From assembly GCF_916619195.1 (NCBI RefSeq), contig NZ_CAKAKL010000002.1:1676001-1740000 (forward strand): DNA of 64,000 bases, read 5' to 3'. This DNA comes from Inquilinus sp. Marseille-Q2685 (GTDB lineage: Bacteria > Pseudomonadota > Alphaproteobacteria > DSM-16000 > Inquilinaceae). The notes below the pieces were generated by a model. The model did not search any database and had not been told where the DNA came from. It saw only the letters and a list, made by a program, of their open reading frames with translations. Positions 1 to 15,430 of the stretch are shown in pieces. Every line of letters begins with the position of its first letter. The stretch's first letter is position 1. The position numbers were made by a program, and so were the translations under genes.

Positions 1-501
1 AACCTGCAGAACCACACCAACTGGGCCGCTCTCGTCGGCGACACCACGCCGACAACCGCGGAGCACATGCCGACCGCGCCGTCGGTCGCCAACCCTGAGG
101 CCGTGCTCACAGGCCTCAGGTTGCCCAGCGTCAAGATAGCCGCCGCCTGGAGCGCCGCACTCGACACTGCGGCGCTGCGCAACCCGACATACAGGCCACC
201 GGCCTATCCGAACCCGGCACTTGCCACCGCCTATCCGATCGTCGGTTTCACCATGCTCGACCTCTACTCCTGCTATTTCCCGGCGGCGGAGACCAGCACG
301 CTGAAGGGCCTGATCTCCTGGTACACCGGCCACCATCCGCGGGTGTCCACCGCCGTGCCGGACCAGATCGCGCGCAAGCACGGCTTCGTGTCGCTGAACC
401 AGACGTTCAAGGACGCAGTCTGGGCCTGGGCCAACGACGCCACCCTCGGCCTGAAGACCGGCCCGATCTCCGGCACCTGCACCGTCAGCTCCGGCACCTG
501 A
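1..501 (+). CDS. PstS-like secreted binding protein, C-terminal part
   Basis: The reading frame is open from the first base, so this is the 3' part of a gene that begins before the window. The visible 166 residues match the C terminus of the complete protein at 13973-15430 almost segment for segment: NLQN-TNWAA, AAWSAALDTAALRNP, GFTMLDLY-CYFPAAE and the ending GPISGTCT-SSGT. That paralogue has a signal peptide and periplasmic phosphate-binding-protein motifs, so this one is probably also secreted. A perfect hairpin follows the stop. Position just upstream of the TpsB gene raises the possibility that it is cargo of the adjoining secretion locus; this is inference. Confidence 0.85.
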   Translation, partial: NLQNHTNWAALVGDTTPTTAEHMPTAPSVANPEAVLTGLRLPSVKIAAAWSAALDTAALRNPTYRPPAYPNPALATAYPIVGFTMLDLYSCYFPAAETSTLKGLISWYTGHHPRVSTAVPDQIARKHGFVSLNQTFKDAVWAWANDATLGLKTGPISGTCTVSSGT

Positions 502-554: not shown

Positions 555-844
555 CGCGCCCCCTCCGGAATCATGACAATACAATGACAGATCTACGCGG
601 AATTCTATCAATATAAATGCATATAATATGCTATTACATTTCTGTGAATAGCCGCATACTTGTCCACACGAAATGCTTCCTACCACCTCAAAGCACGATT
701 GAACGTGTCTGTATGTATGTGCTAGTCAGATTTCTAGACAAATGATCGAAACATTCGCCTTTCTGGATTTTCAGAACGGCGCATGTGTGGCGTTTTTATT
801 GCATTTTCGCCCGGATCGGGCCGAGGCCGGCGGAGGGGGAATTC
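555..844 (+). other. AT-rich upstream region of the secretion locus
   Basis: No convincing gene is seen here. From about 580 to 790 the sequence is far more AT-rich than its surroundings, with runs such as TATAAATGCATATAATATG. This fits a promoter region for the operon starting at 845. A strong ribosome-binding site, GGAGGGGGA, sits at its right end. No operator could be assigned. Confidence 0.45.
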
Positions 845-2494
845 ATGTGGCCGAGGAGGGGGTCGAGGCTGGTCGTGGCCGGCTGGGCGGCGTGTGCGCC
901 GCTGCTGGCCGCGGCCGCCCAGGCGGCGGCGCCCGAGGCGCCGGCCGCCGCCGAAGCGCCGGGTGAGCCGGCGTCCGCGCCCTCCGCCGCCCCCCCTGCC
1001 GCCGCCAACCGCTTCGACATCCTGGAGTATCAGGTCCAGGGCAACACCGTGCTGCCGGTGGTCCAGATCGAGGAGGCGATCTACCCGTTCCTGGGGCCGG
1101 ACAGGACGATCGACGACGTCGAGGGCGCCCGCGCCGCGCTGGAGAAGCGCTACGCCGATGCCGGCTACATCACCGTCGCCGTCAACATCCCGGAGCAGAC
1201 GGTGCGCGAGGGCGTCGTCCGGCTCGAGGTGGTGGAGGCGCGGGTCGGCCGCCTCCGCGTGCGCAACTCGCGCTACTACTCGCTGGGCCGGATCAAGGGC
1301 GCGGCGCCGTCGCTGGCCGAGGGCACGGTGCCGCAGCTGGCCGGGATCCAGCGCGATTCGGAGGTGCTGAACCGGCTGCCGGGCCGCACCGTGACGCCGC
1401 AGCTGAAGGCGGGGGTGGAGCCGGGGACGGTCGACGCCGACCTGAATGTCGAGGACGAATCGCCGTTCCAGGCCTCGGTCGAGTTGAACAACCAGTACAG
1501 CGCCAACACCAAGCCGCTGCGGCTGTCCGGCTCGGTCGGCTACGACAACCTCTGGCAGCTCGGCCATTCGGTGTCGCTGCAGTACACCACCGCGCCGGAG
1601 GACCCGGACCAGACCTCGGCGATCGCCGCGACCTACACCTTCCGCATCCCGGAGTGGAAGGAGAGCCTGGTGCTGTACGGCATCACCTCCTCCTCCAACG
1701 TGGCGACGCTGGGCGGGGTGAACGTGATCGGCGACGGCACCATCGTCGGCGGCCGCGGCGTGCTGCCCCTGCCCGGCCTGACGGATTTCTACCACACGCT
1801 GATGCTGGGCCTGGACTGGAAGGATTTTGGCGAGCGCCAGCTGTTCGGCGCCGACGAATCCGAGACGCCGATCACCTACACCACGGCGACGATCGAGTAC
1901 AACGCCACCCGGCCGGACACCCAGGGCACGACCTCGGCCAGCCTGTCCGCCACCTTCGGGCTGCGCGGCCTGGGCGACCCGGACGACAAGTTCGAGCAGA
2001 AGCGCGCCGGCGCCTCGGCCGACTTCGCCTATTTCCGCGCCGGGCTGGAGCGGCAGCAGATCCTGCCCGCCGAGTTCGAGCTGACGGCCCGGCTGGACGG
2101 CCAGCTGGCCAGCCAGCCGCTGATCAGCAACGAGCAGTTCAGCGCCGGCGGCGTCTCCAGCGTGCCCGGCTACCTCGAATCCGAGGAGCTCGGCGACAAT
2201 GGCTGGATCGCCGCGCTGCGCCTGTCGACGCCCAATCTCGGCCAGTGGATCGACCCGTCGGTGGTCGAGGACTGGCGGGTCTACGCCTATGGCGACTTCG
2301 CCGAGCTGTGGCTGCAGGACGCCAATCCCGGCCAGGACGACGAATTCCAGCTCGCCAGCCTGGGCTTCGGCTCGCGGGTCAAGCTGCTGAACCACCTCAC
2401 CGGGTCGGTCGACCTCGCGGTGCCGCTGATCGACGCCAGCGACACCAAGGCGAACGACATCCGCATCCTGTTCACCCTCGGCGCCAGCCTCTGA
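845..2494 (+). CDS. TpsB/FhaC-family outer-membrane secretion protein
   Basis: This is a 549-residue two-partner-secretion transporter of the ShlB/FhaC/HecB type (Omp85 superfamily). It has a signal peptide ending near residue 26, an Ala/Pro-rich linker, one clear ShlB-type POTRA domain at about residues 56-130, and a C-terminal 16-strand-type barrel from about 180 to the end. The start was set at 845 because GGAGGGGGA lies just upstream; an in-frame ATG at 785 is less likely. The loop-6 signature, normally VRGY/F, reads VPGY at residues 440-443, so the conserved arginine is missing. No TpsA-type haemagglutinin gene is adjacent. Downstream genes follow within 20 bases. Confidence 0.88.
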   Translation: MWPRRGSRLVVAGWAACAPLLAAAAQAAAPEAPAAAEAPGEPASAPSAAPPAAANRFDILEYQVQGNTVLPVVQIEEAIYPFLGPDRTIDDVEGARAALEKRYADAGYITVAVNIPEQTVREGVVRLEVVEARVGRLRVRNSRYYSLGRIKGAAPSLAEGTVPQLAGIQRDSEVLNRLPGRTVTPQLKAGVEPGTVDADLNVEDESPFQASVELNNQYSANTKPLRLSGSVGYDNLWQLGHSVSLQYTTAPEDPDQTSAIAATYTFRIPEWKESLVLYGITSSSNVATLGGVNVIGDGTIVGGRGVLPLPGLTDFYHTLMLGLDWKDFGERQLFGADESETPITYTTATIEYNATRPDTQGTTSASLSATFGLRGLGDPDDKFEQKRAGASADFAYFRAGLERQQILPAEFELTARLDGQLASQPLISNEQFSAGGVSSVPGYLESEELGDNGWIAALRLSTPNLGQWIDPSVVEDWRVYAYGDFAELWLQDANPGQDDEFQLASLGFGSRVKLLNHLTGSVDLAVPLIDASDTKANDIRILFTLGASL

Positions 2495-2512
2495 CCCCGG
2501 ACCGACGCGAGC

Positions 2513-3670
2513 ATGAGACGCTTCCTCCCGACCCGACCGCTCCCGACCGTCCGGCTGCTGCTCGGCGCCCTGCTGGCGCTGCTGCTGACGCCCCAGGCCG
2601 CCTCGGCCTGGTGGAACAGCGAATGGACGCTGCGCAAGCCGATCACCGTCGATCTCGGCCCCAATGCCGGCGCCGTCCCCGGCATGGCCGGGCGGGCGCA
2701 GGTGCTGGTCCGCCTGTCCGCCGCCAACTTCAACTTCCTCGCCGCCAAGGATGACGGATCCGACATCCGCGTCATCGCCGAGGACGACAAGACGCCGCTG
2801 AACTTCCACATCGAGAAGTTCGACAACCTGTTCGAGATGGGCCTGATCTGGGTCGACCTGCCCAATGCCGCGGCCGACAAGCCGCAGACCATCTGGCTGT
2901 ACTGGGGCAACGAGAAGGCGACCGCGACCGGCAACGCCAAGGCCGGCTACGACGCCGCCCAGGCGCTGGTCTGGCACTTCACCGAGCCCGGGGCCCTGCC
3001 GCTCGACTCCACCGGCTACGCCAACAACGCGGCGCAGTCGACCGCGGCGAAGGTCGACGCCTCCTTCATCGCCGGCGGCATCGGCTTCAACGGCACCGGC
3101 ACGGTGATGCTGCCGGCGACGCCCAGCCTGGCCGTGCCGCAGGGCGGCGCCTTCACCTGGTCGGCCTGGATCAAGCCCGGCACGCTGCAGCCCAACGCCG
3201 TGATCTACGAGAAGGAGGCGGCGGCCGGCCTGATCCAGTCCGGCGGCCTGGCCATCGGCCTCGACCAAGCCACGCCCTTCGTCAGCGTCGATGCCGGCGC
3301 CGGGCCGCAGCGGATCGCGGCCGCGGCCCCGGTGGCGGCCGGGACCTGGACCCATCTCGCCGTCACCGTCGCCGCCGGCCAGGTGACGCTGTATGTCGAC
3401 GGCCGCCCGGCCGGGACCGGGGCCGTCGCCGTGCCGGCGCTGGCCGGCGCCGCGGTGCTGGGCGGCCCCTTCGCCCGCCCGCCGGCGCCCGAGCCGGTGG
3501 CGACGCCGCCGGCGGAGGCAGTGCCGGGCGCCGCGCCCGCCCCCGGCACGCCGCCGGCCGAACCCACGGCCCCTGCCGCCCCGCCCCCCCCGCCTTCGCC
3601 CATTATGTCGGCGAGCTGGACGAGCTGGAGATCGCCAATGTGGCACGGCCGGGCCCGGCGATCCTGCTGA
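2513..3670 (+). CDS. DUF2341-LamG protein, frame-broken from its ExbB domain
   Basis: The protein has a signal peptide (cleavage after ASA at residue 32), a DUF2341 domain at about 65-140, a LamG/concanavalin-like domain from about 160, and a Pro/Ala-rich linker at 322-363. In this frame it then runs into about 20 unrelated residues and stops. The missing LamG end (YVGELDELEIANVAR) lies in the next frame and leads straight into the ExbB-like sequence at 3640-4470. Adding one C to the run of eight at 3584-3591 would give one continuous protein of 652 residues. DUF2341 proteins fused to MotA/TolQ/ExbB domains are a known architecture. The break is an assembly error, a real mutation or slippage; the sequence alone cannot tell. 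Confidence 0.8.
   Translation: MRRFLPTRPLPTVRLLLGALLALLLTPQAASAWWNSEWTLRKPITVDLGPNAGAVPGMAGRAQVLVRLSAANFNFLAAKDDGSDIRVIAEDDKTPLNFHIEKFDNLFEMGLIWVDLPNAAADKPQTIWLYWGNEKATATGNAKAGYDAAQALVWHFTEPGALPLDSTGYANNAAQSTAAKVDASFIAGGIGFNGTGTVMLPATPSLAVPQGGAFTWSAWIKPGTLQPNAVIYEKEAAAGLIQSGGLAIGLDQATPFVSVDAGAGPQRIAAAAPVAAGTWTHLAVTVAAGQVTLYVDGRPAGTGAVAVPALAGAAVLGGPFARPPAPEPVATPPAEAVPGAAPAPGTPPAEPTAPAAPPPPPSPIMSASWTSWRSPMWHGRARRSC
3584..3591 (+). other. run of eight C at the frame break
   Basis: Eight consecutive C residues sit in the Pro-rich linker between the LamG part and the ExbB part. Nine (or six) would keep the two halves in one frame. Homopolymer runs of this length are prone both to sequencing error and to slippage in the cell. 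Confidence 0.75.
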
Positions 3671-4470
3671 CCGCCCGCAGCGCCGCGGCCGACAGCCGGC
3701 TGCTGGCCTTCGGCGTCGACGAGGAGGGCTCGGGCTTCGACCTCGGCCACTTCAATGCGATCCTCGCCTCAGTCACGGTCGACGGCTGGGCGGTGATCGG
3801 TCTCCTGGGCGTGATGCTGCTGCTGAGCTGGGCGGTGATGCTGTCCAAGGTCGGCTACGTCAACCGGGTGGACAAGGCCAACAAGCGCTTCCTGGTGCCG
3901 TTCCGCCGGCTGGTGGCCGACCTCGCCGCGCTCGACCAGGGCGACCCGGACGACGCGACCGCGCCCGCCCGTCTCGCCGGCGGCAGCGAGGCGAAGACCT
4001 ATCGCAACGCCTCGCTGTACCGGCTGTACCATGTCGGGGCCGAGGAGATCACCCACCGGGCCAAGGCGGCGCGCGGCAAGCCGGGCCGGCTGGTGCTGTC
4101 GCCGGAATCGATCGCGGCGATCCGCGCCACGCTCGACGCCACCCTGACGCGCGAGATCCAGCGCGCCAACCGGCTGATGGTGGTGCTGACCATCGCCATC
4201 TCCGGCGGGCCGTTCCTCGGGCTGCTCGGCACCGTGGTGGGCGTCATGATCACCTTCGCCGCGATCGCCGAATCCGGCCAGGTCAACATCAACTCGATCG
4301 CCCCCGGCATCGCCGGCGCGCTGGTCGCCACCGTCGCCGGCCTCGCCGTCGCGATCCCGGCCCTGTTCGGCTACAACTACCTGGCCAGCCGGATCCGCGA
4401 CATCACCGCCGACATGCAGGTCTTCGTCGATGAGTTCACGACGAAGATGGCCGAATTCTATGCGCGCTGA
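3640..4470 (+). CDS. MotA/TolQ/ExbB proton-channel domain
   Basis: This is an inner-membrane proton-channel subunit. Hydrophobic segments fall at about residues 49-68, 176-205 and 220-246, and the stretch GPFLGLLGTVVGVM is the hallmark of TolQ/ExbB. The GTG at 3640 is only the first start-like codon. The frame is open further upstream and encodes the end of the LamG domain, so it is probably the C-terminal half of one protein with 2513-3670 rather than an independent gene. It is followed 9 bases later by exbD and then tonB, which together would form a proton-motive-force-driven energiser. Confidence 0.85.
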   Translation: MARPGPAILLTARSAAADSRLLAFGVDEEGSGFDLGHFNAILASVTVDGWAVIGLLGVMLLLSWAVMLSKVGYVNRVDKANKRFLVPFRRLVADLAALDQGDPDDATAPARLAGGSEAKTYRNASLYRLYHVGAEEITHRAKAARGKPGRLVLSPESIAAIRATLDATLTREIQRANRLMVVLTIAISGGPFLGLLGTVVGVMITFAAIAESGQVNINSIAPGIAGALVATVAGLAVAIPALFGYNYLASRIRDITADMQVFVDEFTTKMAEFYAR

Positions 4471-4479
4471 GGATCCGCC

Positions 4480-4887
4480 ATGCAGGTCCAGTCGGAAAAC
4501 AAGCCGTATGACGACATCAACGTCACGCCGATGCTCGACCTCGCCTATGTGCTGCTGCTGATCTTCATCATCATGACCACGGCGGCGGTGCAGGGCATCG
4601 AGGTGAACCTGCCGAAGGCCAGCGCCGCCGCGGCCATGTCGCAGCCGCAGATGCGGGCGATCTCGATCGACAACCGGGGGCAGGTCTATCTCGACACCAT
4701 CCCGGTGACGATGCCGGAGCTGGAGAGCCGGATCGCCCAGATCAAGGCGACCGTTCCCGACTTCCCGGTGGTGATCAAGGCCGACCAGGCGGTGCAGTAC
4801 GCCCGCGTGATGGACGTGCTCGACCTGCTGCGCCGCGTCGGCGTGCAGCAGGTCGGCCTCGTCTCGCAGCGTCCGGCGACGAGCTGA
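4480..4887 (+). CDS. exbD: ExbD/TolR biopolymer transport protein
   Basis: The 135 residues show the ExbD/TolR plan: a short cytoplasmic N terminus, the motif DINVTPMLDLAYVLLLIFI containing the membrane aspartate needed for proton coupling, one membrane helix at about 18-40, and a periplasmic domain ending at about 130. It lies between the ExbB-like gene and tonB with gaps of 9 bases each, so the three products very likely form one complex. It probably serves the TpsB pore or the porin of this locus rather than general iron uptake; that is inference from context. Confidence 0.92.
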   Translation: MQVQSENKPYDDINVTPMLDLAYVLLLIFIIMTTAAVQGIEVNLPKASAAAAMSQPQMRAISIDNRGQVYLDTIPVTMPELESRIAQIKATVPDFPVVIKADQAVQYARVMDVLDLLRRVGVQQVGLVSQRPATS

Positions 4888-4896
4888 GCCCGGGCG

Positions 4897-5634
4897 ATGG
4901 AGGAGCGTCCCAACTGGATCCGGCGGATCGCCTGGGCGGGCATGGCCCTGGCCCTGGTCGCCGCCGTGATCGTGCTGGGCGCGGCCGTCCTGCGCGGCAA
5001 GCCGGTGCAGGCTCCGCGCCAGCCACCGCCGATCCAGATGGTCGAGCTGCCGCCGCCACCGCCGCCCCCTCCCCCGCCGCCGGAGCCCGAGATCAAGCCG
5101 CCGGAGCCGGTCGAGACCCCCGAAGTCAAGGAGCCCGAGCCGGTGCCGGAACCGAAGGCGGAGGAGCCCAAGCCCGAGGAGGAGGCGAAGCCGGATCCGG
5201 GGCCGAAGGACAAGGCGCCGGGCGACGACGCGCTGGACGCCGAGGGCGAGGCCTGCGCCGGCGCCGCCTGCCTGACCGCGCGCAAGGGCGGCACCGGCCT
5301 CGGCACCGGCGGGGGTGGCGGCGGAGGCGGCGGCTACGGCCAGTACGCCCTCGTGGAATCGCAGCGGGCGGCCCAGCGCGACGCGACCCTGCGCCGGGCG
5401 GTCGACGGCAGCGACACCGTGCGCGGCCGCCGCGCCTCGGTGGTGCTGGCGATCTCGGTCGGATCGGACGGGCGGATCGGCCAGGTCCGCCTGGCCCAAT
5501 CCTGCGGCGACCCGTCGGTCGACAACGCGGTGGTGGAGGCGGTCCGCAGGCTCGGCTCGTTCCGCCAGGCCCCACCCAGCGGCACGCCGGTGACGCTGCG
5601 CATCCAGCTCAACATCCAGCAGTCCAGGGCATGA
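4897..5634 (+). CDS. tonB: TonB-family energy transducer
   Basis: The 245-residue protein has a cytoplasmic N terminus, a membrane helix at about 11-32, a long Pro/Glu/Lys-rich periplasmic spacer (about 40-115, including a run of ten prolines), a Gly-rich stretch near 145, and a TonB C-terminal domain from about 165 to the end. It transmits energy from the ExbB/ExbD motor to an outer-membrane partner. No TonB-dependent receptor gene is present in the window, so the partner may be the porin or TpsB encoded next to it. Its stop overlaps the earliest possible start of the porin gene. Confidence 0.9.
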   Translation: MEERPNWIRRIAWAGMALALVAAVIVLGAAVLRGKPVQAPRQPPPIQMVELPPPPPPPPPPPEPEIKPPEPVETPEVKEPEPVPEPKAEEPKPEEEAKPDPGPKDKAPGDDALDAEGEACAGAACLTARKGGTGLGTGGGGGGGGGYGQYALVESQRAAQRDATLRRAVDGSDTVRGRRASVVLAISVGSDGRIGQVRLAQSCGDPSVDNAVVEAVRRLGSFRQAPPSGTPVTLRIQLNIQQSRA

Positions 5635-5642
5635 GGGATCTG

Positions 5643-7250
5643 ATGTTCAAGCGTACCGGCCTCGCCGCCGCGATCAGCGTTCTCGCTGTCGGCACAGCCT
5701 TCGGCCAGACCCCGACCGAGCAGTCGACGACGCTGGCCCTGATCCGGCTGCTGGTGCAGGAGGGCATCCTGTCGCGCGACAAGGCGCAGTCGCTGCTGAC
5801 CCAGGCCGAACAGGAGGCGCGGGCAGCGGAGGCGAACCGCGCGGCCAGCGGCCAGGCGGTGCCGCCCGGCACCCCGCCGGGCACGGTGCGGGTGCCCTAT
5901 GTGCCCGAGGTGGTGCGCAACCAGATCCGCGACGACGTCAAGAAGGAGGTGCTGGCCCAGGCCAAGACCGAGCGCTGGGGCGACCCCGGCACGCTGCCGG
6001 CCTGGCTCGACCGGGTGAAGCTGTACGGCGACGTCCGGGTGCGCGGCCGGGCCGACTATTACGACCCGAACAATGCCGAGTTCTTCGACTTCCAGAAGCT
6101 CAACAACGACGGCTATGGGACGCTCCTGAGCGACGCGATCCCCTATCCGCCGCTGCTGAACAACCGCGAGGACCGCTATCGCGGCCAGGTCCGCGCCCGG
6201 CTCGGCGTCGAGGCCGATCTGGGCAACGGCTTCTCCACCAATGTCCGCATCGCCACCGGCAACGACCTCGACCCGGTCTCGACCAATGCCGACATGGCGA
6301 TGGCGCTGGGCAACAAGAACTTCAATCTCGACCGCGCCTATATCCAGTACGAAGGCGATGCGCTGGGCACCGGCGGCGCCCTCAAGATCGATGCCGGCCG
6401 CTTCGGCAACCCATTCTATTCGACCGACCTGGTGTGGGACGAGGACGTCAATTTCGACGGCCTTGCCGTCGGCTACCGCCAGCCGGTGCTGGACCAGCTG
6501 GACGCCTGGGGCGCGGTCGGCCTGTTCCCGCTGAAGGAGATGGCCTTCTCCTCGCGCGACCAGGTGCTGTACGGCGGCCAGCTCGGCGTCGACTGGCGCC
6601 CCTATGACGACGCCTCGCTGAAGCTCGGCGTCGCCTATTACGATTTCCAGAACGTGCTCGGCGATCCGCGCGCGATCGACGCCGACGACCATCGGCGCAA
6701 TCTTTCGCTGCCGTCCTTCATGCAGAAGGGCAACAGCCTGTGGGACGTCGGCGACAAGGGCAACCCCGCCGTCGACAGCGACGACCTCGTCGCCTTCGGC
6801 CTGGCCTCGAAGTTCCAGGAGCTGAACGTCACTGCCTCGCTCGACCTCTCGATGTTCGACCCGATCCATGTCGTGCTGACCGGCGACCTTGTCGCCAACC
6901 TGGGCTACGACAAGGACAAGGTGGACGCCCGCGTCGGCGAGGCGGGCCGCCGGAGCGGCAACATGGGCTACCTCGCCCGCATCCTGGTCGGCCATCCCGA
7001 GATCCGGCACGGCAACGACTGGAACGCCAGCTTCACCTACAAGTACCTGGAGTCGGATTCGGTGGTCGATGCCTTCACCGACAGCGACTTCCACAATGGC
7101 GGCACCAACGCCAAGGGCTTCATCCTGGCCGGCAATTACGGCGTCGTCGACGACGTCTGGCTGGGACTGCGCTGGCTGAGCAGCGACGCGATCAGCGGCC
7201 CGAAGTTCTCGGTCGACACGCTGATGCTCGACATCAACGCCCGCTTCTGA
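5643..7250 (+). CDS. putative outer-membrane porin
   Basis: The 535-residue protein starts with a signal peptide (MFKRTGLAAAISVLAVGTAFG), followed by a helical segment with coiled-coil character at about 25-65. A beta-barrel of repeated amphipathic strands then ends in the aromatic-terminated strand LDINARF, with C-terminal phenylalanine. It resembles the putative porin family (Porin_5 type). The start at 5643 is preferred because GAGGGA lies just upstream; an ATG at 5631 overlapping the tonB stop is possible. The substrate is unknown. Position between tonB and the periplasmic genes suggests it belongs to the same complex. Confidence 0.85.
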   Translation: MFKRTGLAAAISVLAVGTAFGQTPTEQSTTLALIRLLVQEGILSRDKAQSLLTQAEQEARAAEANRAASGQAVPPGTPPGTVRVPYVPEVVRNQIRDDVKKEVLAQAKTERWGDPGTLPAWLDRVKLYGDVRVRGRADYYDPNNAEFFDFQKLNNDGYGTLLSDAIPYPPLLNNREDRYRGQVRARLGVEADLGNGFSTNVRIATGNDLDPVSTNADMAMALGNKNFNLDRAYIQYEGDALGTGGALKIDAGRFGNPFYSTDLVWDEDVNFDGLAVGYRQPVLDQLDAWGAVGLFPLKEMAFSSRDQVLYGGQLGVDWRPYDDASLKLGVAYYDFQNVLGDPRAIDADDHRRNLSLPSFMQKGNSLWDVGDKGNPAVDSDDLVAFGLASKFQELNVTASLDLSMFDPIHVVLTGDLVANLGYDKDKVDARVGEAGRRSGNMGYLARILVGHPEIRHGNDWNASFTYKYLESDSVVDAFTDSDFHNGGTNAKGFILAGNYGVVDDVWLGLRWLSSDAISGPKFSVDTLMLDINARF

Positions 7251-7261
7251 CGGAGGGACCG

Positions 7262-7906
7262 ATGCTCGCGATCCGCCATCGGACGATCCCGGCTCTCTGC
7301 CTCGCCCTCCTGCTCGCCGCCCCGGCGGCGGCGCAGGAGGAGAGCGATGTCGGCCGGCTGCGCGAGGCGCTGCGCCGGGCCACGGTCGATCTGCGCACGG
7401 CCCAGAACCAGGCCACGGCGCTGCAGTCGCAGCTGAGCCAGGCGCAGCAGACCATCGCAACCCGCGATGCCGAGGCCAAGCAGCTGCGCACCCAGATCGG
7501 CCAGCTGCAGGGCCGGCTCGACGCCGCGACCGAGAAGGCGGACGGCCTGCAGGCCGAGCTCGACACCGCTGCCGCGACCCTGGAGACGACGCGCGGCGAG
7601 CTGGACCAGACCCGGCGCAGCCTCGGCCGGACCCAGGGGCAGCTGCGCGACACCGAGGGCCGGCGGGCGACGGCCCAGGCCGGGCTCGAGCAGACCTCGG
7701 GCTTCCTCAAGGCCTGCGAAGCCGCCAACGACCAGCTCTACAAGGTCGGCCGCGAGGTGCTGGCCGCCTATGACGGCAAGGATCTCGGCGATGTGCTGGC
7801 GCAGAACGAGCCGTTCACACAGCTCAAGAGCGTCGAGATGGAAAACATCATCCAGGACCTCCAGGACAAGCTGACCGACGCCCGCTACCGGAAGCCGGCG
7901 AAATGA
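7262..7906 (+). CDS. periplasmic coiled-coil protein
   Basis: The 214-residue protein has a cleavable signal peptide (ALLLAAPAAAQ) and then about 120 residues of continuous heptad-type sequence rich in Ala, Gln, Leu, Thr and Arg, which predicts a long coiled coil. A short C-terminal globular part follows (about 155-214). I do not recognise a named family. The ribosome-binding site GGAGG lies 6 bases upstream, and the end overlaps the next gene by 4 bases (ATGA), so it is translated with the PPIase. A periplasmic scaffold or spacer is a reasonable guess. Confidence 0.75.
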   Translation: MLAIRHRTIPALCLALLLAAPAAAQEESDVGRLREALRRATVDLRTAQNQATALQSQLSQAQQTIATRDAEAKQLRTQIGQLQGRLDAATEKADGLQAELDTAAATLETTRGELDQTRRSLGRTQGQLRDTEGRRATAQAGLEQTSGFLKACEAANDQLYKVGREVLAAYDGKDLGDVLAQNEPFTQLKSVEMENIIQDLQDKLTDARYRKPAK

Positions 7907-8826
7907 GGCGCGTGCCGGTGCTTCTCGCGCTGCTTGCGCTCGGCGCCGCGCCGGCGGCGGCGCAGCAGCCGCCGGCCGAGCCGGTGGCCCGCATGGGCGC
8001 GATCGGCCTGTCGCCGGCCGAGGTCGAGGCCTTCCTGCGCGGCCTCGATCCGCAGGTGCTGGCCCAGGCGGCGACCAGCCGCGAGGCGCTGGACGGGCTG
8101 ATCCGGGCCGAGCTGACGCGCCGGGCGGTGGTCGCCGAGGCGGCCAAGGCCGGCTGGGCCGACCGGCCGGAGGTCGCGGCCCGGATCGAACAGGCGCGGC
8201 AGCAGGTGATCGTCGACACCTGGCTCGCCGCCAGATCCGAGCCGCCGGCCGGCGACCCGCCGGACGCCGATCTGCGCAGGATCTACGACGACAACACCGC
8301 CCGCTTCGTCGCGCCGGCGGAGATGCATCTGGCGCAGATCTTCCTGCCGGTGCCCCCCGGCGCCTCGGAGGCCGAGGCCAAGGCGGCGGAGGACCGGATC
8401 GGCGAGCTGCGCCGTCGCGCCCGGGCCCGGGGCGCCGATTTCGCCGCGCTGGCACGGCAGGCCTCGCAGCACAAGGACAGCGCCGACAAGGGCGGCGACA
8501 TGGGCTGGCTGTCGGAGGACGCCCTGATCCCCGAGATCCGCGAGGCGGTGGCCGGGCTGGAGAAGGGCGCCGTCAGCACGCCGATCCGCAGCCAGGCCGG
8601 CTGGCACCTGATCCGGCTGGTCGACCGCAAGGCGTCGCGGGTGCAGGGCTTCGACGAGGTCCGGCCGCTGCTGGTCCAGGCGCTGCGCCGGCAGCAGGCG
8701 GCGGATCTGCGGCGCCAGTACATCGAAGGCCTGGTCGGCGCCGCCCCGCCGGCGATCAACGAGATCGCGGTGACGGAGATCCTGTCCCGGCTGGCGCCGG
8801 CGGCCCCCGCCGCCCCGTCCCAGTGA
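7903..8826 (+). CDS. parvulin-type peptidyl-prolyl isomerase
   Basis: The 307-residue protein has a signal peptide cleaved near AAAQQ, a SurA/PrsA-like N-terminal helical region, and a rotamase (parvulin) domain at about 130-235 with the usual blocks AEMHLAQIFLPVP, KGGDMGWLSED and GWHLIRLVD. It should act in the periplasm as a folding factor for exported or outer-membrane proteins. It overlaps the upstream coiled-coil gene by ATGA, and its end overlaps a possible GTG start of the next gene. A dedicated PPIase inside a secretion operon suggests it handles the cargo or the barrel proteins of this locus. Confidence 0.88.
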   Translation: MRRVPVLLALLALGAAPAAAQQPPAEPVARMGAIGLSPAEVEAFLRGLDPQVLAQAATSREALDGLIRAELTRRAVVAEAAKAGWADRPEVAARIEQARQQVIVDTWLAARSEPPAGDPPDADLRRIYDDNTARFVAPAEMHLAQIFLPVPPGASEAEAKAAEDRIGELRRRARARGADFAALARQASQHKDSADKGGDMGWLSEDALIPEIREAVAGLEKGAVSTPIRSQAGWHLIRLVDRKASRVQGFDEVRPLLVQALRRQQAADLRRQYIEGLVGAAPPAINEIAVTEILSRLAPAAPAAPSQ

Positions 8827-8852
8827 CCCGAGCAGAACCGATGGAGACGAGC

Positions 8853-9188
8853 ATGACCACGCAGCAGACCGGCGCGGCGAACGGAGCCGGGGAGCGCTTC
8901 TCCCCCGACACCCGCTACTTCTCGCTGTTCCACCTGACCGCCAATGCGGCGGAAGCGCAGCTGCTGGTCGGCCGTGCCCGCATCGTCGTCGGATCCGGCC
9001 CGTCGCCCTCGGCCGAGCCGATGGCCACGGAATGGCTGGTCAGCCTGGCGATGAGCCCGGTGACGATGAAGGACCTGGCGCGCAAGCTGGCCGAGACCGT
9101 GGCGTCGTATGAGCGGACCTTCGGGCCGATCGCCGATATTCCGGGCGAGGCTGCCGCCCCGGCCGCGGCGGAGAGGGGCCGGGTGTGA
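8853..9188 (+). CDS. small DUF3467-like protein
   Basis: The protein is about 111 residues from the ATG at 8853, chosen for the GGAGA just upstream; ATG 8841 or GTG 8823 are alternatives. The core resembles the DUF3467 family: a strand-rich N-terminal part, then LAMSPVTMKDLARKL followed by SYERTFGPI, matching the family's usual ending in which a helix precedes YE..FG.I. It has no signal peptide and should be cytoplasmic. It overlaps the ABC ATPase gene by 4 bases. Its function is unknown. Placement suggests a regulatory or adaptor role for the ABC module. Confidence 0.65.
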   Translation: MTTQQTGAANGAGERFSPDTRYFSLFHLTANAAEAQLLVGRARIVVGSGPSPSAEPMATEWLVSLAMSPVTMKDLARKLAETVASYERTFGPIADIPGEAAAPAAAERGRV

Positions 9189-9943
9189 TCCGCGCCGACC
9201 GCCTGCATCGCCGCTTCGGATCCGTGATCGCGGTGGCCGACGTCTCGCTCGAGATCGGGCGCGGCGAGGTGGTCGGCCTGCTCGGTCCGAATGGCGCCGG
9301 CAAGTCGACGCTGCTGCGCATGCTGGCCGGATATCTCGAGCCGGATGCCGGCACCGCGTCGCTCGACGGGATCGATGTCCGGCGGCGCCCGATCGCGGCA
9401 CGGCGGCGGCTCGGCTACCTGCCGGAGGGGGCGCCGCTGTATCCCGAGATGACGCCGTCCGGCCTGCTCGGCTTCGTCGCCGGCGTGCACGGGCTGGCCG
9501 GGCGGGCCCGGCGCGCGGCGGTGGTGGCGGCGGCCGAGCGGGTCGAGCTCGGGCCCGTGCTGCGCCGGCCGATCGAGCCCCTGTCCAGGGGCTCCCGGCG
9601 GCGCCCCGCCCGGGCCGCGGCGCTGCGGCCGGCCCCGCCGATCCTGATCCTGGATGAGCCGACCGACGGGCTCGACCCCAACCAGAAGCAGCAGATGCAC
9701 GACACCATCCGCGAGATGGGCCGCGACAAGGCGATCCTGGTCTCGACCCATGTCCTGGAGGAGGTCGAGGCGATGTGCGGCCGCGCCGTGATCCTGGCCG
9801 CCGGCCGGATCCGCGCCGACGACACCCCGGCCGCCCTGGCCAGGCGCTCTCCCGACGGCCGGCTGGCCGGGCTGTTCCGGACCTTGACCCTGCCGGGCGC
9901 CCAGCCCCTGCCGGACGTGCCGCGCCCGGCGGAGGCGGCCTGA
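9185..9943 (+). CDS. ABC transporter ATP-binding protein, GldA-like
   Basis: The 252-residue nucleotide-binding subunit starts at GTG. It has Walker A GPNGAGKST at about 34-42, the Q-loop region near 78, Walker B ILILDEP at about 153-159, the D-loop GLDPNQ and the H-loop STH. The organisation ATPase, ABC-2 permease, then a large periplasmic-type protein is that of GldA/GldF/GldG modules. The signature loop is unusual: LSRGS (about 133-137) followed by RRRPARAAAL, where relatives have LSKGY then RQRVGLAQAL. This may reduce activity or reflect a sequence error; no compensating frameshift was obvious. Confidence 0.85.
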   Translation: MIRADRLHRRFGSVIAVADVSLEIGRGEVVGLLGPNGAGKSTLLRMLAGYLEPDAGTASLDGIDVRRRPIAARRRLGYLPEGAPLYPEMTPSGLLGFVAGVHGLAGRARRAAVVAAAERVELGPVLRRPIEPLSRGSRRRPARAAALRPAPPILILDEPTDGLDPNQKQQMHDTIREMGRDKAILVSTHVLEEVEAMCGRAVILAAGRIRADDTPAALARRSPDGRLAGLFRTLTLPGAQPLPDVPRPAEAA

Positions 9944-9944
9944 G

Positions 9945-10679
9945 ATGCGCGCCGGCCTCGCCCTGTTCCGGCGCGAGCTGGCGGGCTATTTCGCCACGCC
10001 GAACGCCGCCGTCTTCGTCGTCGTCTTCCTGGTCCTGGCCGGGGCGCTGCCGATCTATGCCGGCGACTTCTTCGGCCGCGGCGAGGCCGACCTGGACCCG
10101 TTCTTCGCCTTCCTGCCCTGGCTGTCCCTGCTGCTGGCCCCCGCCATCGCCATGCGGCTGTGGGCGGAAGAGGCACGCACCGGCCCGGTCGAGCTGCTGT
10201 TGACCTTGCCGATCGGACCCGGCGCCGCCGTGCTGGCCAAGTTCCTGGCCGGCTGGGCGGTGATGGCCCTGGCCCTGGCCCTGACCTTCCCGATGTGGCT
10301 GACCGTCGCCTGGCTGGGCGACCCGGACCACCGGGTGATCGCCGCCGGCTACGCCGGCAGCCTGCTGGTCGCCGGCCTGTATCTCGCCGTCGCCTCCGCC
10401 GCCAGCGCCGTGACCCGCAACCAGGTGGTGGCCTTCATCCTCGGCGTCGCCCTGTGCCTCCTCGTCACCATCCCGGGCGCGCCGGCGCTGGCCGGGCTGC
10501 TGGGTGACCGGCTGCCGGCCGGGATCGCCGACGCGGTAGCGGTGTTCGGCGTGCTGCCGCATGTCCGGCCGATCGCGCGCGGAATCATCGACCTGCGCGA
10601 CCTGATCTTCTTCGCCACCGTCACCGCCTTCTTCCTCTTCGCGGCGTCAGTGGCGCTCGGCCTGCGGCGGGCGGGGTGA
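9945..10679 (+). CDS. ABC-2 type permease, GldF-like
   Basis: The 244-residue integral membrane protein has about six hydrophobic segments and the start typical of the family (LFRRELAGYFATPNAAVFV). The conserved block RLWAEEARTGPVELLLTLPI follows the second helix. It starts 1 base after the ATPase stop and overlaps the next gene by 4 bases. It should form the membrane pore of the GldA/F/G-type transporter. In gliding bacteria this module is linked to motility or secretion, but in proteobacteria the substrate is not known. Confidence 0.87.
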   Translation: MRAGLALFRRELAGYFATPNAAVFVVVFLVLAGALPIYAGDFFGRGEADLDPFFAFLPWLSLLLAPAIAMRLWAEEARTGPVELLLTLPIGPGAAVLAKFLAGWAVMALALALTFPMWLTVAWLGDPDHRVIAAGYAGSLLVAGLYLAVASAASAVTRNQVVAFILGVALCLLVTIPGAPALAGLLGDRLPAGIADAVAVFGVLPHVRPIARGIIDLRDLIFFATVTAFFLFAASVALGLRRAG

Positions 10680-12571
10680 CGGCGATGCGGCAACCGCTCC
10701 GGCACCGCCTGACCGGACTCGCCGCCCTGGCCCTCGCACTCGCGGCCACGGTCGGCGTCAATCTCTGGGCCGATGGCGCCCTGCGCGGGCACCGCCTCGA
10801 CCTCAGCGAGGATCGCCGCCACGCCCTCGACGCCGCCACCCACGCGGTGCTCGAGGGCTTGAGCCAACCGGTGACGCTGCGGCTGGTGGTGTCCGACCAG
10901 CTCGCCGCCGCGTCCCCCGCTTTGGCCGGATACGCCCGCCGGGTCGAGGCGCGGCTGGAGGACTATGCCGCCGCCGCCGGCGACCGGCTGACGCTGCGGC
11001 GCGAGATCCCGGAGCCGTTCAGCGACGCCGAGGACCGCGCCGTTGCCGACGGGCTGCTGGGCCTGCCGCTGACCAAGGGCGGCGACCCGATCTATTTCGG
11101 CCTGGTCGGCAGCAGCGCCGCCGACCGGGTGGCGATCCCCTTCCTGCGGCCGGAGGAGGAGCCGACGCTGGACCTGCAGCTGACCCGCATGATCGCGCGG
11201 CTGGCCTCGCCGGACCGGCGCCAGGTGGCGGTGGTCAGCACCCTGCCGCTGGGCGGCGCGCTGGCCTTCGGCGGCCGGGTGCTGCCGGCCTTCACCGCCT
11301 ATCGCGACATGCAGAAGGATTTCGACGTCAAGCCGATCGCGATCAACGATCTGGCGGCCAAGGGCACGGCGGCCCTGGACCCCGCGACGATCGACGTGCT
11401 GCTGCTGGTGCATCCGCGCGACCTGCCGCCGGCCGCGCAATATGCGATCGACCAGTTCCTGATGGCTGGCGGCCACGCCCTGGTGCTGGTCGATCCGCTG
11501 TCCGAGGCAGCGGCGGAGCGGCTGCCGGAGCAGGCGGCGCGCGGCGCCTCCTTCTCCGCCCTCGGCGCGTTCGGGCCAAGCTGGGGATTGGGGCTCGACA
11601 TCGGCCGGGTCGCCGGCGACCGGGCCCTGGCCTCCAGCATCACCATCCGGCGCGACGACGGCCGGCCGCTGAAGCTGCAGCACCTGGTCTGGCTGACCCT
11701 GGCCGAGCAGAACCGCGACGCCGCAGACCCGGCCTTCGCCGGGCTGGGCCCGATCACGGTCGGCACCGCGGGCATCCTGCGGCCGCTGATGGGCGCGACC
11801 ACGCGCTTCTCGCCGCTGCTGTTCACCAGCGACCACGGCACGCCGGTGGATGTCGGCGAGATCGTGCCGCGCACCGATCCGCAAGCGCTGTGGGCTGCCC
11901 ACCCGTCCGGCAACGAGCGGCTGGTGCTGGCGGCGCGGGTCGGCGGTCATGCCCGCAGCGCCTTCGCCGACCAGCTGCCGGACGGCGTCGCCGTCGAAGG
12001 CGCCCCGCCGCCGGGGCGGAAGCTGGAAACCGACGCGCTGAATCTCGTGGTGATCGCCGACACCGACATCCTCGACGACCGCTTCTGGATCGCCCGCGGC
12101 CAGCCCGGGCAGCCGGCCCGGGCTTTCGCCGCCAATGGCGACTTCCTGCTGGCGCTGCTGGAGGAGCTGTCCGGGACGCAGGACCTGTCGGCCCTGCGCA
12201 ACCGGGCCGCCGGCGCGCGGCCTTTCACCCGGATCGCCGAGATCGGCCGTGCCGCGGCGGCGCGGCTGCAGGACAGCGAGGCGGCACTGACCGAGCGGCT
12301 GACCCGGTTCCAGCGCGACATGGCTGCGGCGCAGAGCACCGAGGGCGGCGCCGAACCGTCGCGCCAGGCGATCGAGGATCTGCGCGCCAAGGTGGTCGGC
12401 ACTCGGCAGGAGCTGCGCGAGGTCCGGCAGGCGCTGCGCGCCGATGTCGAGACGATCGAGAGAGCCTTGGTCTGGCTCAATGTCGCAGCCGTCCCGGCCG
12501 CAATCCTTCTTCTCACCTTCATGATCATGGCCATCCGACCATTCCGAAGGAGGCTTCGCATGTCAACCTAA
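10676..12571 (+). CDS. GldG-family periplasmic-domain protein of the ABC module
   Basis: The 631-residue protein has an N-terminal membrane anchor (about 10-30), a large extracytoplasmic region containing the ABC-type uncharacterised transport domain (VDVLLLVHPRDLPPAAQYAIDQFL and the DPLSEAA block), a predicted coiled coil at about 530-595, and a C-terminal membrane helix followed by a basic tail (RPFRRRLRMST). This two-anchor layout is typical of GldG. Translation probably begins at the GTG overlapping the permease stop; ATG 10685 is an alternative. The operon seems to end here: the next 247 bases are AT-rich with no gene and probably carry the promoter of the RTX gene at 12819. Confidence 0.82.
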   Translation: MTAMRQPLRHRLTGLAALALALAATVGVNLWADGALRGHRLDLSEDRRHALDAATHAVLEGLSQPVTLRLVVSDQLAAASPALAGYARRVEARLEDYAAAAGDRLTLRREIPEPFSDAEDRAVADGLLGLPLTKGGDPIYFGLVGSSAADRVAIPFLRPEEEPTLDLQLTRMIARLASPDRRQVAVVSTLPLGGALAFGGRVLPAFTAYRDMQKDFDVKPIAINDLAAKGTAALDPATIDVLLLVHPRDLPPAAQYAIDQFLMAGGHALVLVDPLSEAAAERLPEQAARGASFSALGAFGPSWGLGLDIGRVAGDRALASSITIRRDDGRPLKLQHLVWLTLAEQNRDAADPAFAGLGPITVGTAGILRPLMGATTRFSPLLFTSDHGTPVDVGEIVPRTDPQALWAAHPSGNERLVLAARVGGHARSAFADQLPDGVAVEGAPPPGRKLETDALNLVVIADTDILDDRFWIARGQPGQPARAFAANGDFLLALLEELSGTQDLSALRNRAAGARPFTRIAEIGRAAAARLQDSEAALTERLTRFQRDMAAAQSTEGGAEPSRQAIEDLRAKVVGTRQELREVRQALRADVETIERALVWLNVAAVPAAILLLTFMIMAIRPFRRRLRMST

Positions 12572-12818
12572 GATATAATATTGACTCTTGATTATCTTGA
12601 GACTCGCGAATCAACATTCACGAGAATCATTATCTTTTGGATATATTTCAAATACAATTTGATTTATTCACAACAGAGTCTCATGATTGCAATAGTATTT
12701 CTGTAATATCCCCGACATCCGCTTGGCATTCTAGGGCGGACATCAGCGGCTGCCGCACTTCGCCAAGGCGCCGGGGCCGCTTCCGCACGGATCGTGCGAA
12801 CCTTGATAGGGGGAAGAC

Positions 12819-13625
12819 ATGAGCCAGATCACGGGAACCGCGAATGATGATTTCCTGTTCGGCACCGCGGGTGACGACGTCATCAAGGGCCTCGGAGGCC
12901 ACGACGCTCTCGACGGCGGCGCCGGCAACGACCTGCTGAATGGCGGCGACGGCGACGACTCGCTCTATGGCGGCGACGGCAACGATGCCCTGACCGGTGG
13001 CGCCGGTGCCGACACCATCGATACCGGTGCCGGAACCAATGTGGCCGATGGCGGCGCGGGCGACGATCTGATCGGCGGCGGCGAGGGCAGCGATGTCCTG
13101 CATGGCGGCGACGGCAACGATTCGATCACCGCCAACAGCGGCGATGACGTCGTGCTCGGGGGCGCCGGCCATGACCTGATCTCCGGCGATGAGGGCAGCG
13201 ACGTGCTCGTCGGCGGCAGCGGCGACGACATCATCGACGGCGGCGATGGCAATGATGTCCTCACCGGCGGCGCCGGATACGATACCTTGACGGGCAACAC
13301 CGGCGCCGACGCCTTCGTCTTCGCCGGGGTTTCTGAGAGCACGCCGGCGCTGGCCGACATCGTGGCCGACTTCAGCGCGGCCGATCACGACGTCATCAAC
13401 CTGTCGGCAATCGACGCCAAGAGCACGGCCTGCGGCAACCAAGCCTTCAGCTTCATCGGCACCGACACCTTCTCGGGCAAGGCCGGGCAGCTGCGGATCG
13501 AGCAGGTCGACGCCGCGACCGCCCTGGTCCAGGGCGATGTGAACGGCGACAAGATCGCGGATTTCGCGATCGAGGTGCATGGGACCGAGTCACTGACGCT
13601 GACCGCCAGCGACTTCGTCCTCTAA
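12819..13625 (+). CDS. RTX calcium-binding repeat protein
   Basis: The 268-residue protein consists almost entirely of GGxGxDxhx nonapeptide repeats (about residues 9-165), which bind calcium as a beta-roll. A C-terminal domain of the serralysin/type I secretion type follows (from about 170, with INLSAIDAKS, NQAFSFIGTDTFSG and a hydrophobic ending ASDFVL). No signal peptide is present, as expected for a type I secretion substrate, but no type I ABC/HlyD/TolC genes are in the window. The same C-terminal module ends the larger RTX protein at 50954-52783. The ribosome-binding site GGGGGA is clear. Confidence 0.88.
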   Translation: MSQITGTANDDFLFGTAGDDVIKGLGGHDALDGGAGNDLLNGGDGDDSLYGGDGNDALTGGAGADTIDTGAGTNVADGGAGDDLIGGGEGSDVLHGGDGNDSITANSGDDVVLGGAGHDLISGDEGSDVLVGGSGDDIIDGGDGNDVLTGGAGYDTLTGNTGADAFVFAGVSESTPALADIVADFSAADHDVINLSAIDAKSTACGNQAFSFIGTDTFSGKAGQLRIEQVDAATALVQGDVNGDKIADFAIEVHGTESLTLTASDFVL

Positions 13626-13680: not shown

Positions 13681-13972
13681 GGTTATCGGATAACCTCAAA
13701 TATAGAATCAATATTTATCCCAAATTATTTCCATATTGAAGTTCACGAATATTAAACGAATCAATAATCGATTCATCAGAAAGATCTGCAATCATAGTTA
13801 CGGAAGAGGGGAGAAAGTCTATCCTGGCACGACCCACTTTTGTTTCTTCCAGAACGGAGGAATTCGGAAGGGGGAATGGGTCTGGTCAGGCTTCGTCCCT
13901 TTCCCCGTGCAAATGACCGCCGCGACGGCGGTCATCGCCTCGACTCATCCTCATGTCAGGAAGGAGACGACC
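13681..13972 (+). other. AT-rich intergenic region with short palindrome
   Basis: The region begins with the perfect palindrome GGTTATCGGATAACC (13681-13695). About 100 very AT-rich bases follow, and then the leader of the PstS-like gene. An open frame runs through the region from 13736, but its first 79 codons do not look coding and precede a normal signal peptide, so I treat it as promoter and leader. GAAGAGGGGAGAAAG near 13805 is purine-rich without an obvious gene behind it. Confidence 0.4.
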
Positions 13973-15430
13973 TTGTCCATCCGTCTGAAGTCCTGCAGCC
14001 TCCTCGCGCTCGCCGCGGGCAGCATGCTGTTTGCCGCCCCGGCCTCGGCCGAGACCCTCTATGCCGGCGGCGCGACCCTGCCCTTCGGCGTGTATCGCTC
14101 CTGGTTCGACTGCTTCGGCACCGTGCTGAACTCCGCGCAGCATCCGCGCGACGCGCTGTGCACCGCCGCGGCCGGCTTCCCGGTCGACAGCTCGGCGACC
14201 ATCGCCTATGCCCCGGTGGGCAGCGGCGGCGGCATCACGGCCCTGATCAACCAGCAGTCGCCGAACGCGCAGCCGAGCAGCACTCCGTACGAGAACGCCA
14301 CCATCGTCTACAACGAGGGCACCAACGGCTACGGCACCGGCCCCAATTTCTGGGACTTCTCGGGCAGCGACGCGACGCTGAACAGCACCCAGATCAGCGC
14401 CTATAACAGCGCGGCCGGCGCGGCCCGCGGCCCGGCGATCCAGATCCCGACCGTCGGCACCTCGGTCACGATCCCGGTCAACGTCACCGGCCTCAACATC
14501 GCCCGCTCGACCCCGGCCGGCGGCACCAGCGGCCTCTACCTGTCGCGCCGGGCCCTGTGCGGCATCTTCACCGGCACGATCACCAACTGGAACGACCCGA
14601 TCCTCACCTACGACAACAACAACACCCAACTGCACGCGAACCTGCCGATCCGGGTCGTCCGTCGCTCAGACTCCAGCGGCACCACCTTCCTGTTCACGCG
14701 CCATCTGAATCAGGTCTGCGGCACCAACGCCAACCCGATCGCAGACGGCAACAATCACCCGTCCAACCCGGGCAATCTCGCCCCCTGGAACCTCGGCGCC
14801 GGCACCACCGTGGCCTGGCCGGCCAGCTTCCTGTCGGCCGCCGGCAGCGAGGGCGTCGCCAGCACCGTCGCCAGCACGACGGGCGCCATCGGCTATGTCA
14901 GCCCGGACTTCACCCGGCAGGTCTCCACGCCGGAGGTCTCGCCGGCGCCGGTCGTGGCCAACCTGCAGAACCAGACCAACTGGGCCGCTCGCGTGAGCGA
15001 CACCACCCCGACCCCCGGCGAGCACACCCCGATCGCGCCGTCGATCACCAATGTCGGGGCCGCGACCAACACCTTCGCGGGCACGACCACCCAGACGGCT
15101 GCCGCCTGGAGCGCCGCGCTCGACACCGCGGCGCTGCGCAACCCGGCCGGCGCGTCGGTCTATCCGATCATCGGCTTCACGATGCTCGACCTGTACACCT
15201 GCTACTTCCCGGCGGCCGAGGCCACCACGATCAAGAACTTCATCTCCTGGATCACCGGCAACCACGCCACCGCCCCGCTCTCCGTCGCCACCCAGATCGC
15301 GAACAACGCCGGCTTCACGATGCCGAGTTCGACGGCGCGGAGCCGGGTCTGGGCCTGGGTCAACAGCGCGACGGCCGGCGTCCGGACTGGTCCGATCTCC
15401 GGCACCTGCACCATCAGCTCCGGTACCTGA
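13973..15430 (+). CDS. PstS-like secreted substrate-binding protein
   Basis: The start is placed at TTG 13973, which has AAGGAG upstream and opens directly into a signal peptide ending in AAPASA; an ATG far upstream at 13736 is unlikely. The mature 460-residue protein carries the motifs of phosphate-binding (PstS/DING-like) proteins: AGGATLP, YAPVGSGGGI, GIFTGTITNWNDP and RRSDSSGTTFLFT. It has extra cysteines at several sites that could form disulfides outside the cell. The C-terminal third is highly similar to the partial gene at 1-501. No pstCAB genes are near, so a role in surface or extracellular phosphate binding, or as cargo of the upstream export locus, is more likely than simple ABC uptake. 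Confidence 0.88.
   Translation: MSIRLKSCSLLALAAGSMLFAAPASAETLYAGGATLPFGVYRSWFDCFGTVLNSAQHPRDALCTAAAGFPVDSSATIAYAPVGSGGGITALINQQSPNAQPSSTPYENATIVYNEGTNGYGTGPNFWDFSGSDATLNSTQISAYNSAAGAARGPAIQIPTVGTSVTIPVNVTGLNIARSTPAGGTSGLYLSRRALCGIFTGTITNWNDPILTYDNNNTQLHANLPIRVVRRSDSSGTTFLFTRHLNQVCGTNANPIADGNNHPSNPGNLAPWNLGAGTTVAWPASFLSAAGSEGVASTVASTTGAIGYVSPDFTRQVSTPEVSPAPVVANLQNQTNWAARVSDTTPTPGEHTPIAPSITNVGAATNTFAGTTTQTAAAWSAALDTAALRNPAGASVYPIIGFTMLDLYTCYFPAAEATTIKNFISWITGNHATAPLSVATQIANNAGFTMPSSTARSRVWAWVNSATAGVRTGPISGTCTISSGT

Follow-up and report, generated by a model that had tools for sequence, protein, structure and literature searches.

A two-partner secretion locus of Inquilinus with ExbB, ExbD and TonB genes and a conserved C-terminal tail motif in its TpsA exoprotein

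The P. aeruginosa locus and its Inquilinus counterpart

Pseudomonas aeruginosa carries a two-partner secretion (TPS) locus, in print since 2009, in which pdtB is followed by exbB2, exbD2, tonB4, a porin gene and several further genes (PMC2729926, PMC4971064, PMC7035377). In P. aeruginosa, tpsB, exbB2, exbD2, PA0696 and the PpiC gene are VreI-regulated neighbours, and homologues of the TPS, ExbBD and PA0696 proteins are grouped in several other bacteria (PMC2729926). A single promoter is reported for phdA, pdtB, exbB2D2, tonB4 and PA0696-PA0701 (PMC4971064), phosphate starvation activates expression of the locus (PMC7035377, PMC4971064), and the Ton genes are described as a still uncharacterised putative TonB system, with PA0696 as a putative porin (PMC7035377). 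Here we describe the corresponding locus of Inquilinus sp. Marseille-Q2685, which lies at positions 845-12571 of a 64,000-nucleotide stretch (the window; C2:1676001-1740000) of its 7.29 Mb genome, together with its partner exoprotein TpsA. The locus is the Inquilinus version of a known, unexplained locus type, and its gene order is not new. What is new is the sole TpsA near the window, the co-occurrence of DUF3739, Porin_5 and the motor across genomes, and a C-terminal tail motif of TpsA that in some homologues is fused to an STN domain. Our literature search found no paper joining a Ton motor to TpsA export or giving binding or secretion data on the motor, and no paper naming DUF3739.

The run consists of the following features:

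845..2494, + strand: TpsB, with POTRA_2 and a ShlB/FhaC-type barrel (Pfam ShlB 70.3 bits, POTRA_2 64.7 bits)
2513..3670, + strand: DUF2341 and LamG, the N-terminal part of a DUF2341-LamG-ExbB fusion, frame stopping at 3670 (Pfam)
3584..3591, + strand: run of 8 C in a Pro-rich loop, site of the frame change (sequence)
3640..4470, + strand: ExbB (MotA_ExbB), in a frame different from that of 2513-3670 (Pfam 97.2 bits, cut-off 22.9)
4480..4887, + strand: ExbD with a transmembrane Asp (INVTPMLDLAYVL) (Pfam 99.5 bits)
4897..5634, + strand: TonB, with a hydrophobic N-terminal segment, Pro-rich linker and TonB_C (Pfam 35.4 bits, cut-off 24.6)
5631..7250, + strand: Porin_5, a predicted 16-stranded barrel with N-terminal helices (Pfam 591 bits; structural model)
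7262..7906, + strand: coiled-coil protein whose start resembles a signal peptide, occupying the PA0697 position (coiled-coil Pfam models, below cut-off)
7903..8826, + strand: PpiC-type peptidyl-prolyl isomerase (Pfam Rotamase 81.1 bits)
8823..9188, + strand: 121-amino-acid protein, Inquilinus loci only (locus comparison)
9185..12571, + strand: ATP-binding cassette (ABC) ATPase, ABC-2 permease-like protein and GldG-like protein (Pfam, NCBIfam)

The ShlB, POTRA_2, DUF2341, LamG, MotA_ExbB, ExbD, TonB_C, Porin_5, Rotamase, ABC_tran and ABC_transp_aux models all scored over the Pfam cut-off. As the first-pass annotation had described, the run is co-directional and tightly packed: its start at 845 lies inside an open reading frame with an alternative GTG start at 785, and the gaps between genes range from -4 to +18 bases with one exception, a 31-base overlap of the DUF2341-LamG frame with the ExbB frame. 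The DUF2341-LamG-ExbB fusion that it also proposed is real as a family, being a single open reading frame in 14 other loci (L053 and L054 of Inquilinus limosus, and 12 of other genera), but in the window it is divided between two frames. The frame changes within the Pro-rich loop near a C-rich tract at 3575-3600, and the 8-C run there is the longest run of C or G within positions 1-13000; an assembly error, phase variation and a mutation are all possible origins of the split. The DUF2341-LamG part is probably periplasmic, and DUF2341 has been noted on ExbB-type proteins, with its function given as not known (PMC12505986).

ExbB, ExbD and TonB all have Pfam matches and ExbD has its membrane Asp, which identifies the three as a Ton motor; the Asp is kept in 10/10 loci looked at, one of which (L051) was read by eye. 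Two consecutive ExbD genes were seen in G360 (L047:11622-12461) and on Aquabacterium olei pTB101 (L118:18348-19164), the other loci read having one. Pfam scans of the run detected no TonB-dependent receptor as a client for the motor, so that the earlier statement that none is present is true of the run; the genome, however, holds seven PF00593 matches elsewhere, and MotA_ExbB genes number four genome-wide. The porin is itself not a TonB-dependent receptor, as it matches Porin_5 only, shows 16 long strands in the model and has no Plug or receptor-barrel match. Its sequence found no match in the PDB up to E 10. Between its variable linker and the barrel, Porin_5 carries a near-invariant VRVPYVP, of which R87, V88 and P92 are invariant in 55 sequences. 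Identification as a phosphate porin from the Porin_5 structure was tried and rejected, OprO and OprP tying with ordinary porins. OmpM1, the tether porin of Veillonella, is different (17% identity), and no SLH domain was found in the Pfam scan.

Judged by gene names in the P. aeruginosa papers, the two loci share TpsB, ExbB, ExbD, TonB, porin (PA0696), a secreted protein and PpiC (PA0699) in the same order, and the novelty first claimed for the gene set falls to this precedent (pdtB-exbB2-exbD2-tonB4-PA0696 to PA0699). Unlike P. aeruginosa, which has the PUMA3 system (VreA/VreR/VreI), Inquilinus lacks a FecR in the 100 kb on either side of the locus, the nearest match on the contig being about 105 kb away; its run also lacks a YbjN (PA0698) gene, its tpsA lies upstream in the same direction, and it has extra genes, namely the 121-amino-acid gene, the ABC module, an RTX gene and PstS-like genes. 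With FhaB/FhaC, HMW1 and CdiA/CdiB the locus shares a TPS domain on TpsA and POTRA plus a ShlB barrel on TpsB, and TpsB matches CdiB (6wim) in sequence (E 7e-9). It differs from classical two-partner secretion in its dedicated Ton motor, its Porin_5 and the C-terminal DUF3739 with the tail motif. Type V translocation is described as powered by no energy source in a review (PMC5422565), which also covers Haemophilus HxuA/HxuB/HxuC, where a TPS exoprotein is likewise combined with a TonB-dependent outer-membrane protein. Unlike HxuABC, the present run has no TonB-dependent receptor, its porin is modelled without a receptor plug, and its motor is encoded in the operon.

Co-occurrence of DUF3739, Porin_5 and the motor

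The gene for the partner TpsA is not in the window but at C2:1663869-1674563 (L008:2869-13563; 3564 amino acids), beginning 12.1 kb and ending 1.4 kb before it and pointing in the same direction as the run. Its TPS domain (residues 117-368) is the one TPS-domain match of the genome and its DUF3739 spans residues 3404-3508, while 845..2494 is the sole ShlB frame of the genome. The presence at one locus of a TpsB with POTRA and a ShlB/FhaC barrel and of a TpsA with an N-terminal TPS domain places the pair in type Vb. Directly upstream of tpsA, L008:949-2721 encodes redoxin and Thioredoxin_10 domains, with a start that by eye is membrane-like and of DsbD/CcdA type.

The distribution of these families was surveyed in 398 evenly drawn Pseudomonadota genomes, the same set being used throughout. 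DUF3739 was present in 14 genomes, Porin_5 in 20 and the TPS domain in 141, and the 14 genomes with a full-length Porin_5 are exactly the 14 with DUF3739, from 8 families. Full length was taken as E below 1e-100, a cut chosen after the gap to the next match (2e-34) was seen; the remaining six Porin_5 genomes have weak partial matches and lack DUF3739. With relatedness ignored, the chance of an identical set is 4e-26 in the 398 genomes and 1e-19 within the 141 TPS genomes. In 12/14 genomes DUF3739 and the porin are found on one contig, no more than about 35 kb apart; in G130 and G284 their contigs differ. The porin is flanked by ExbB, ExbD and TonB in 13/14, TpsB is in the locus in 13/14 (in G284 the contig ends first), and DUF2341 accompanies ExbB in 12/13, with G284 cut by its contig end and the window counted as split over two frames. 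The distance from TpsB to ExbD, read by eye in the DUF3739 genomes, is at most 10 kb in 10 of the 13 measurable genomes and at most 20 kb in 12; in G019 and G360 it is 11-12 kb, with TpsA in between, and G268 has no ExbD to measure to. As a control, 40 TPS genomes without DUF3739, chosen for few contigs, yielded 65 POTRA_2 and 149 ExbD rows. None of the 65 POTRA_2 rows lies within 10 kb of an ExbD and two lie within 20 kb, although 58 share a contig with one. These results are new evidence that the exoprotein C-terminus, the porin and the motor are one unit.

A scan of genome contigs with the porin recovered five loci, four belonging to Inquilinus limosus, and the more distant comparison was drawn from other genomes and plasmids. 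TpsB, the DUF2341-ExbB fusion, ExbD, TonB and the porin form a block in distant genomes, and therefore an absence of co-occurrence can no longer be raised against the grouping proposed by the first-pass annotation. That grouping has nevertheless to be narrowed at its downstream end. Among 14 porin stretches of up to 20 kb from 13 genomes of other genera (that of G284 being only 3.8 kb), a relative of the coiled-coil protein was found in 9/14 and PpiC in 4/14, and none had the GldF/GldG-like or 121-amino-acid genes beside the porin. The ABC module had been read as part of the export system; because its GldF/GldG-like genes occur only in Inquilinus loci, we do not favour it as a component of the machine, and the permease-like, GldG-like and 121-amino-acid genes probably lie outside the conserved core. 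The labels given to these genes also need revision. The ABC ATPase of the supposed GldA/F/G set is over the Pfam cut-off, but the permease is below the Pfam ABC-2 cut-offs, and the NCBIfam equivalog cut-offs were missed both for GldF (160.7 bits against 288.5) and for GldG (56.5 bits against 389.85); 8823-9188, labelled DUF3467-like, was matched by neither Pfam nor NCBIfam at E 0.001. Directly after the ABC module lies a further gene, with a counterpart in three Inquilinus limosus loci, whose product could be a further secreted client:

12819..13625, + strand: small protein with RTX calcium-binding repeats (Inquilinus loci only, locus comparison)

Plasmids carry the locus as well. Porin matches were found in 14 plasmid records, of which 11 cover at least 80% of the porin. 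A DUF3739 tail query matched 14 records. These include nine of the 11, with the tail 5-27 kb from the porin, and the other two of the 11 (Methylomagnum and Aquabacterium) have an annotated filamentous haemagglutinin gene near it; on the plasmids of five tail-query records the porin found no match. The annotated run on Aquabacterium olei pTB101 reads TpsB, TpsA, DUF2341 protein, ExbD, ExbD, TonB, porin, and that on a Cupriavidus plasmid reads PpiC, TpsB, ExbB, ExbD, TonB, porin, hypothetical protein, YbjN. The search listing also placed Porin_5 and a DUF3739 TpsA tail on the Klebsiella plasmids NZ_CP084804 and NZ_CP065459. The locus could thus be mobile by plasmid.

The C-terminal tail of TpsA

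The C-terminal 175 residues of TpsA, used as a query, returned 873 homologues, of which 120 were listed. The tails share a layout in which DUF3739 is followed by a variable linker of 33-49 residues and then by PS(F/I)ITVEV(L/I)G(F/Y), often with a G and acidic residues after it; between the motif and the C-terminus of TpsA there are 2 to 125 residues. The tail of the TpsA that belongs to the window reads PLLITGAFLGYEG. Motif scoring used two-fold training on 29 clusters, with five starting seeds read from the same tails, and 580 shuffles. The motif scored above the 99th percentile of the shuffles in 27/29 clusters (median 21 vs 8.8) and in 1/18 control TpsAs, and 17/20 tails from the 14 genomes were above the motif threshold. 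Longer tails, such as those of L021, L026, L033 and L036, show by eye a second, weaker motif, VQVLGxG, often with LTxEE, 25-45 residues further on, which is possibly a second docking site.

AlphaFold modelled the DUF3739 end as beta-rich and the tail with low confidence, the predicted local distance difference test score (pLDDT) being under 50 at 307-320 and 340-359; one low-confidence helix is placed at 316-337, ahead of the motif. A fold search with the DUF3739 end gave no match with E up to 0.001. The L054 TpsA has a helical stretch ahead of its last beta-rich part (L054:3739-4050, modelled-fragment residues 14-117); the fragment in full gave no fold match.

An STN domain stands last, after DUF3739 and the motif, in 7 of 120 homologues among the matches listed (P0009, P0010, P0011, P0018, P0020, P0030 and P0032), and Pfam confirms it in P0010 (3991-4042 of 4044) and P0020 (4047-4097 of 4102). 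STN is the signalling domain of TonB-dependent transducers, which, counted from the outer membrane, have the order membrane part, box, STN. Seen from the outer membrane, the STN-fused TpsA tail would be this order mirrored to the C-terminus. The STN-fused TpsAs share with the FpvA and FecA transducers and with VreA a short conserved hydrophobic motif adjoining STN, unlike them in having it at the TpsA C-terminus and not at a receptor N-terminus. The tail motif is undescribed and probably a strand-forming docking peptide, and from the company of the motor and the STN fusions we infer that TonB reads it.

A proposed action of the motor on the exoprotein, and its alternatives

We tentatively propose, at a little under an even chance, that the operon pairs the TpsB pore with a dedicated ExbB-ExbD-TonB motor that docks on the conserved, flexible C-terminal tail of TpsA. 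Export through TpsB would start from the TpsA N-terminus, as in other TPS systems, and the DUF3739 end with the tail would remain periplasmic, a plug that is exported last. By strand addition TonB would bind the tail motif; driven by protons flowing through ExbB-ExbD, it might then pull on, and thereby unfold or release, the DUF3739 end, by which export would be finished or gated. The periplasmic DUF2341-LamG part of ExbB may sense the chain as it passes or hold it, in loci that have them PpiC and the coiled-coil protein may serve as chaperones, and the porin may be a tether from outer membrane to cell wall or a channel. Lineages with a VreA/FecR/extracytoplasmic function (ECF) sigma module next to the locus or with an STN-fused tail may also signal the state of the tail to the cell. 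A wider proposition is more doubtful: that these loci form a distinct motor-driven TPS class, in which the proton gradient acts via ExbB-ExbD-TonB on the C-terminal motif of the exported fibre, with or without an STN reporting export to an ECF sigma factor, and in which the substrate and not a receptor is the TonB client.

Several observations weigh against motor docking on the tail. TonB pulls inwards, opposite to export, because of which a gating or release role is needed. The motif, which we took to be like receptor TonB boxes, is missed by a profile built on 28 TonB boxes, taken from receptors that 12 of these genomes encode: the median best score is 2.3 in tails vs 2.5 in shuffles, 1/29 tails exceeds the 95th percentile, and the best box site falls on the motif in 7/29 tails, about 9% being expected by chance. 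By this profile, in which the tails score like shuffles, the motif is not a TonB box, a further difference from the transducers. Six tail fragments had no Pfam or NCBIfam model match, and 3/20 tails fall just under the motif threshold (two in G155, one in G324). The 41.7-kb contig of G268 carries TpsB, porin, coiled coil and TpsA without a motor, the Methylomagnum ishizawai plasmid has no annotated motor gene in the 20 kb around its porin, and the ExbB of the window is in a separate frame from its own N-terminal domain. A P. aeruginosa mutant in PA0695, the tonB homologue, was as virulent as wild type in zebrafish, a readout that is not secretion, and the single mutants reported, this one included, kept their virulence (PMC2729926).

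The main rival to motor docking on the tail is uptake, which we consider unlikely. The motor would energise the porin, TpsA would be a surface capture fibre and a PstS-like protein a periplasmic or surface binder, in a phosphate-scavenging analogue of HxuA/HxuB/HxuC. Porin_5 is indeed the most faithful partner (14/14), its near-invariant VRVPYVP sits between linker and barrel, and HxuABC provides a precedent (PMC5422565). PhoB and phosphate control operate in P. aeruginosa, phoU lies two genes past the porin on the Methylomagnum plasmid, and PBP_like_2 is within 5 kb of TpsA in 9/14 genomes (by eye, one below the cut-off). Two PstS-like genes reach into or lie in the window:

1..501, + strand: 3' part of a first PBP_like_2 (PstS-like) gene, located in the tpsA-tpsB interval (domain scan, stop count)
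13736..15430, + strand: second PstS-like PBP_like_2 protein, frame open (domain scan, stop count)

The first of these occupies about L008:14010-15501 (C2:1675010-1676501) in the tpsA-tpsB interval and has one in-frame TAG, upstream of the window; the gene has apparently been duplicated and the copy between tpsA and tpsB broken.

That the tail motif and STN serve cell-surface signalling alone is improbable. They would report unexported TpsA, in the manner of VreA/VreR/VreI, and the motor would drive signalling and not export. Consistent with this are the C-terminal STN domains described above, the PUMA3 system of P. aeruginosa, and a FecR that in 10/14 genomes is no more than about 30 kb from the locus (by eye); L038 has an STN, ECF sigma, FecR run upstream of TpsA, and L040 has STN plus a TonB_2 protein, sigma and FecR. 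However, the motif is kept in four genomes without FecR nearby, the window's included (G000, G019, G268 and G360), and three of the four have the motor.

Less probable still is a set of co-regulated envelope genes with no joint machine, in which the motor would serve receptors elsewhere in the genome. The seven receptor matches and four MotA_ExbB genes would allow this, and G268 and the zebrafish results (PMC2729926) agree with it; set against them are the DUF3739-Porin_5 pairing in 14/14 genomes of 8 families, with order largely kept, and the control TpsBs, which have no ExbD within 10 kb. Equally slight is the chance that TonB acts on TpsB itself, at the pore or the POTRA domains, so as to open it for TpsA. 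In the window, as in 10/14 other-genus porin stretches, the ExbB gene directly follows tpsB, but the TpsB N-terminus before POTRA is unconserved and Ala/Pro-rich, with no shared motif seen, and in Aquabacterium, G019 and G360 the motor is separated from TpsB by TpsA.

Should the motor indeed act on the tail of TpsA, two rules would be broken, namely that type V secretion works without an energy source and that Ton motors serve import, and the 15-residue tail would offer a handle for testing powered export. Such a role would account for exbB2-exbD2-tonB4 of P. aeruginosa, and also for TPS and cell-surface-signalling genes travelling together.

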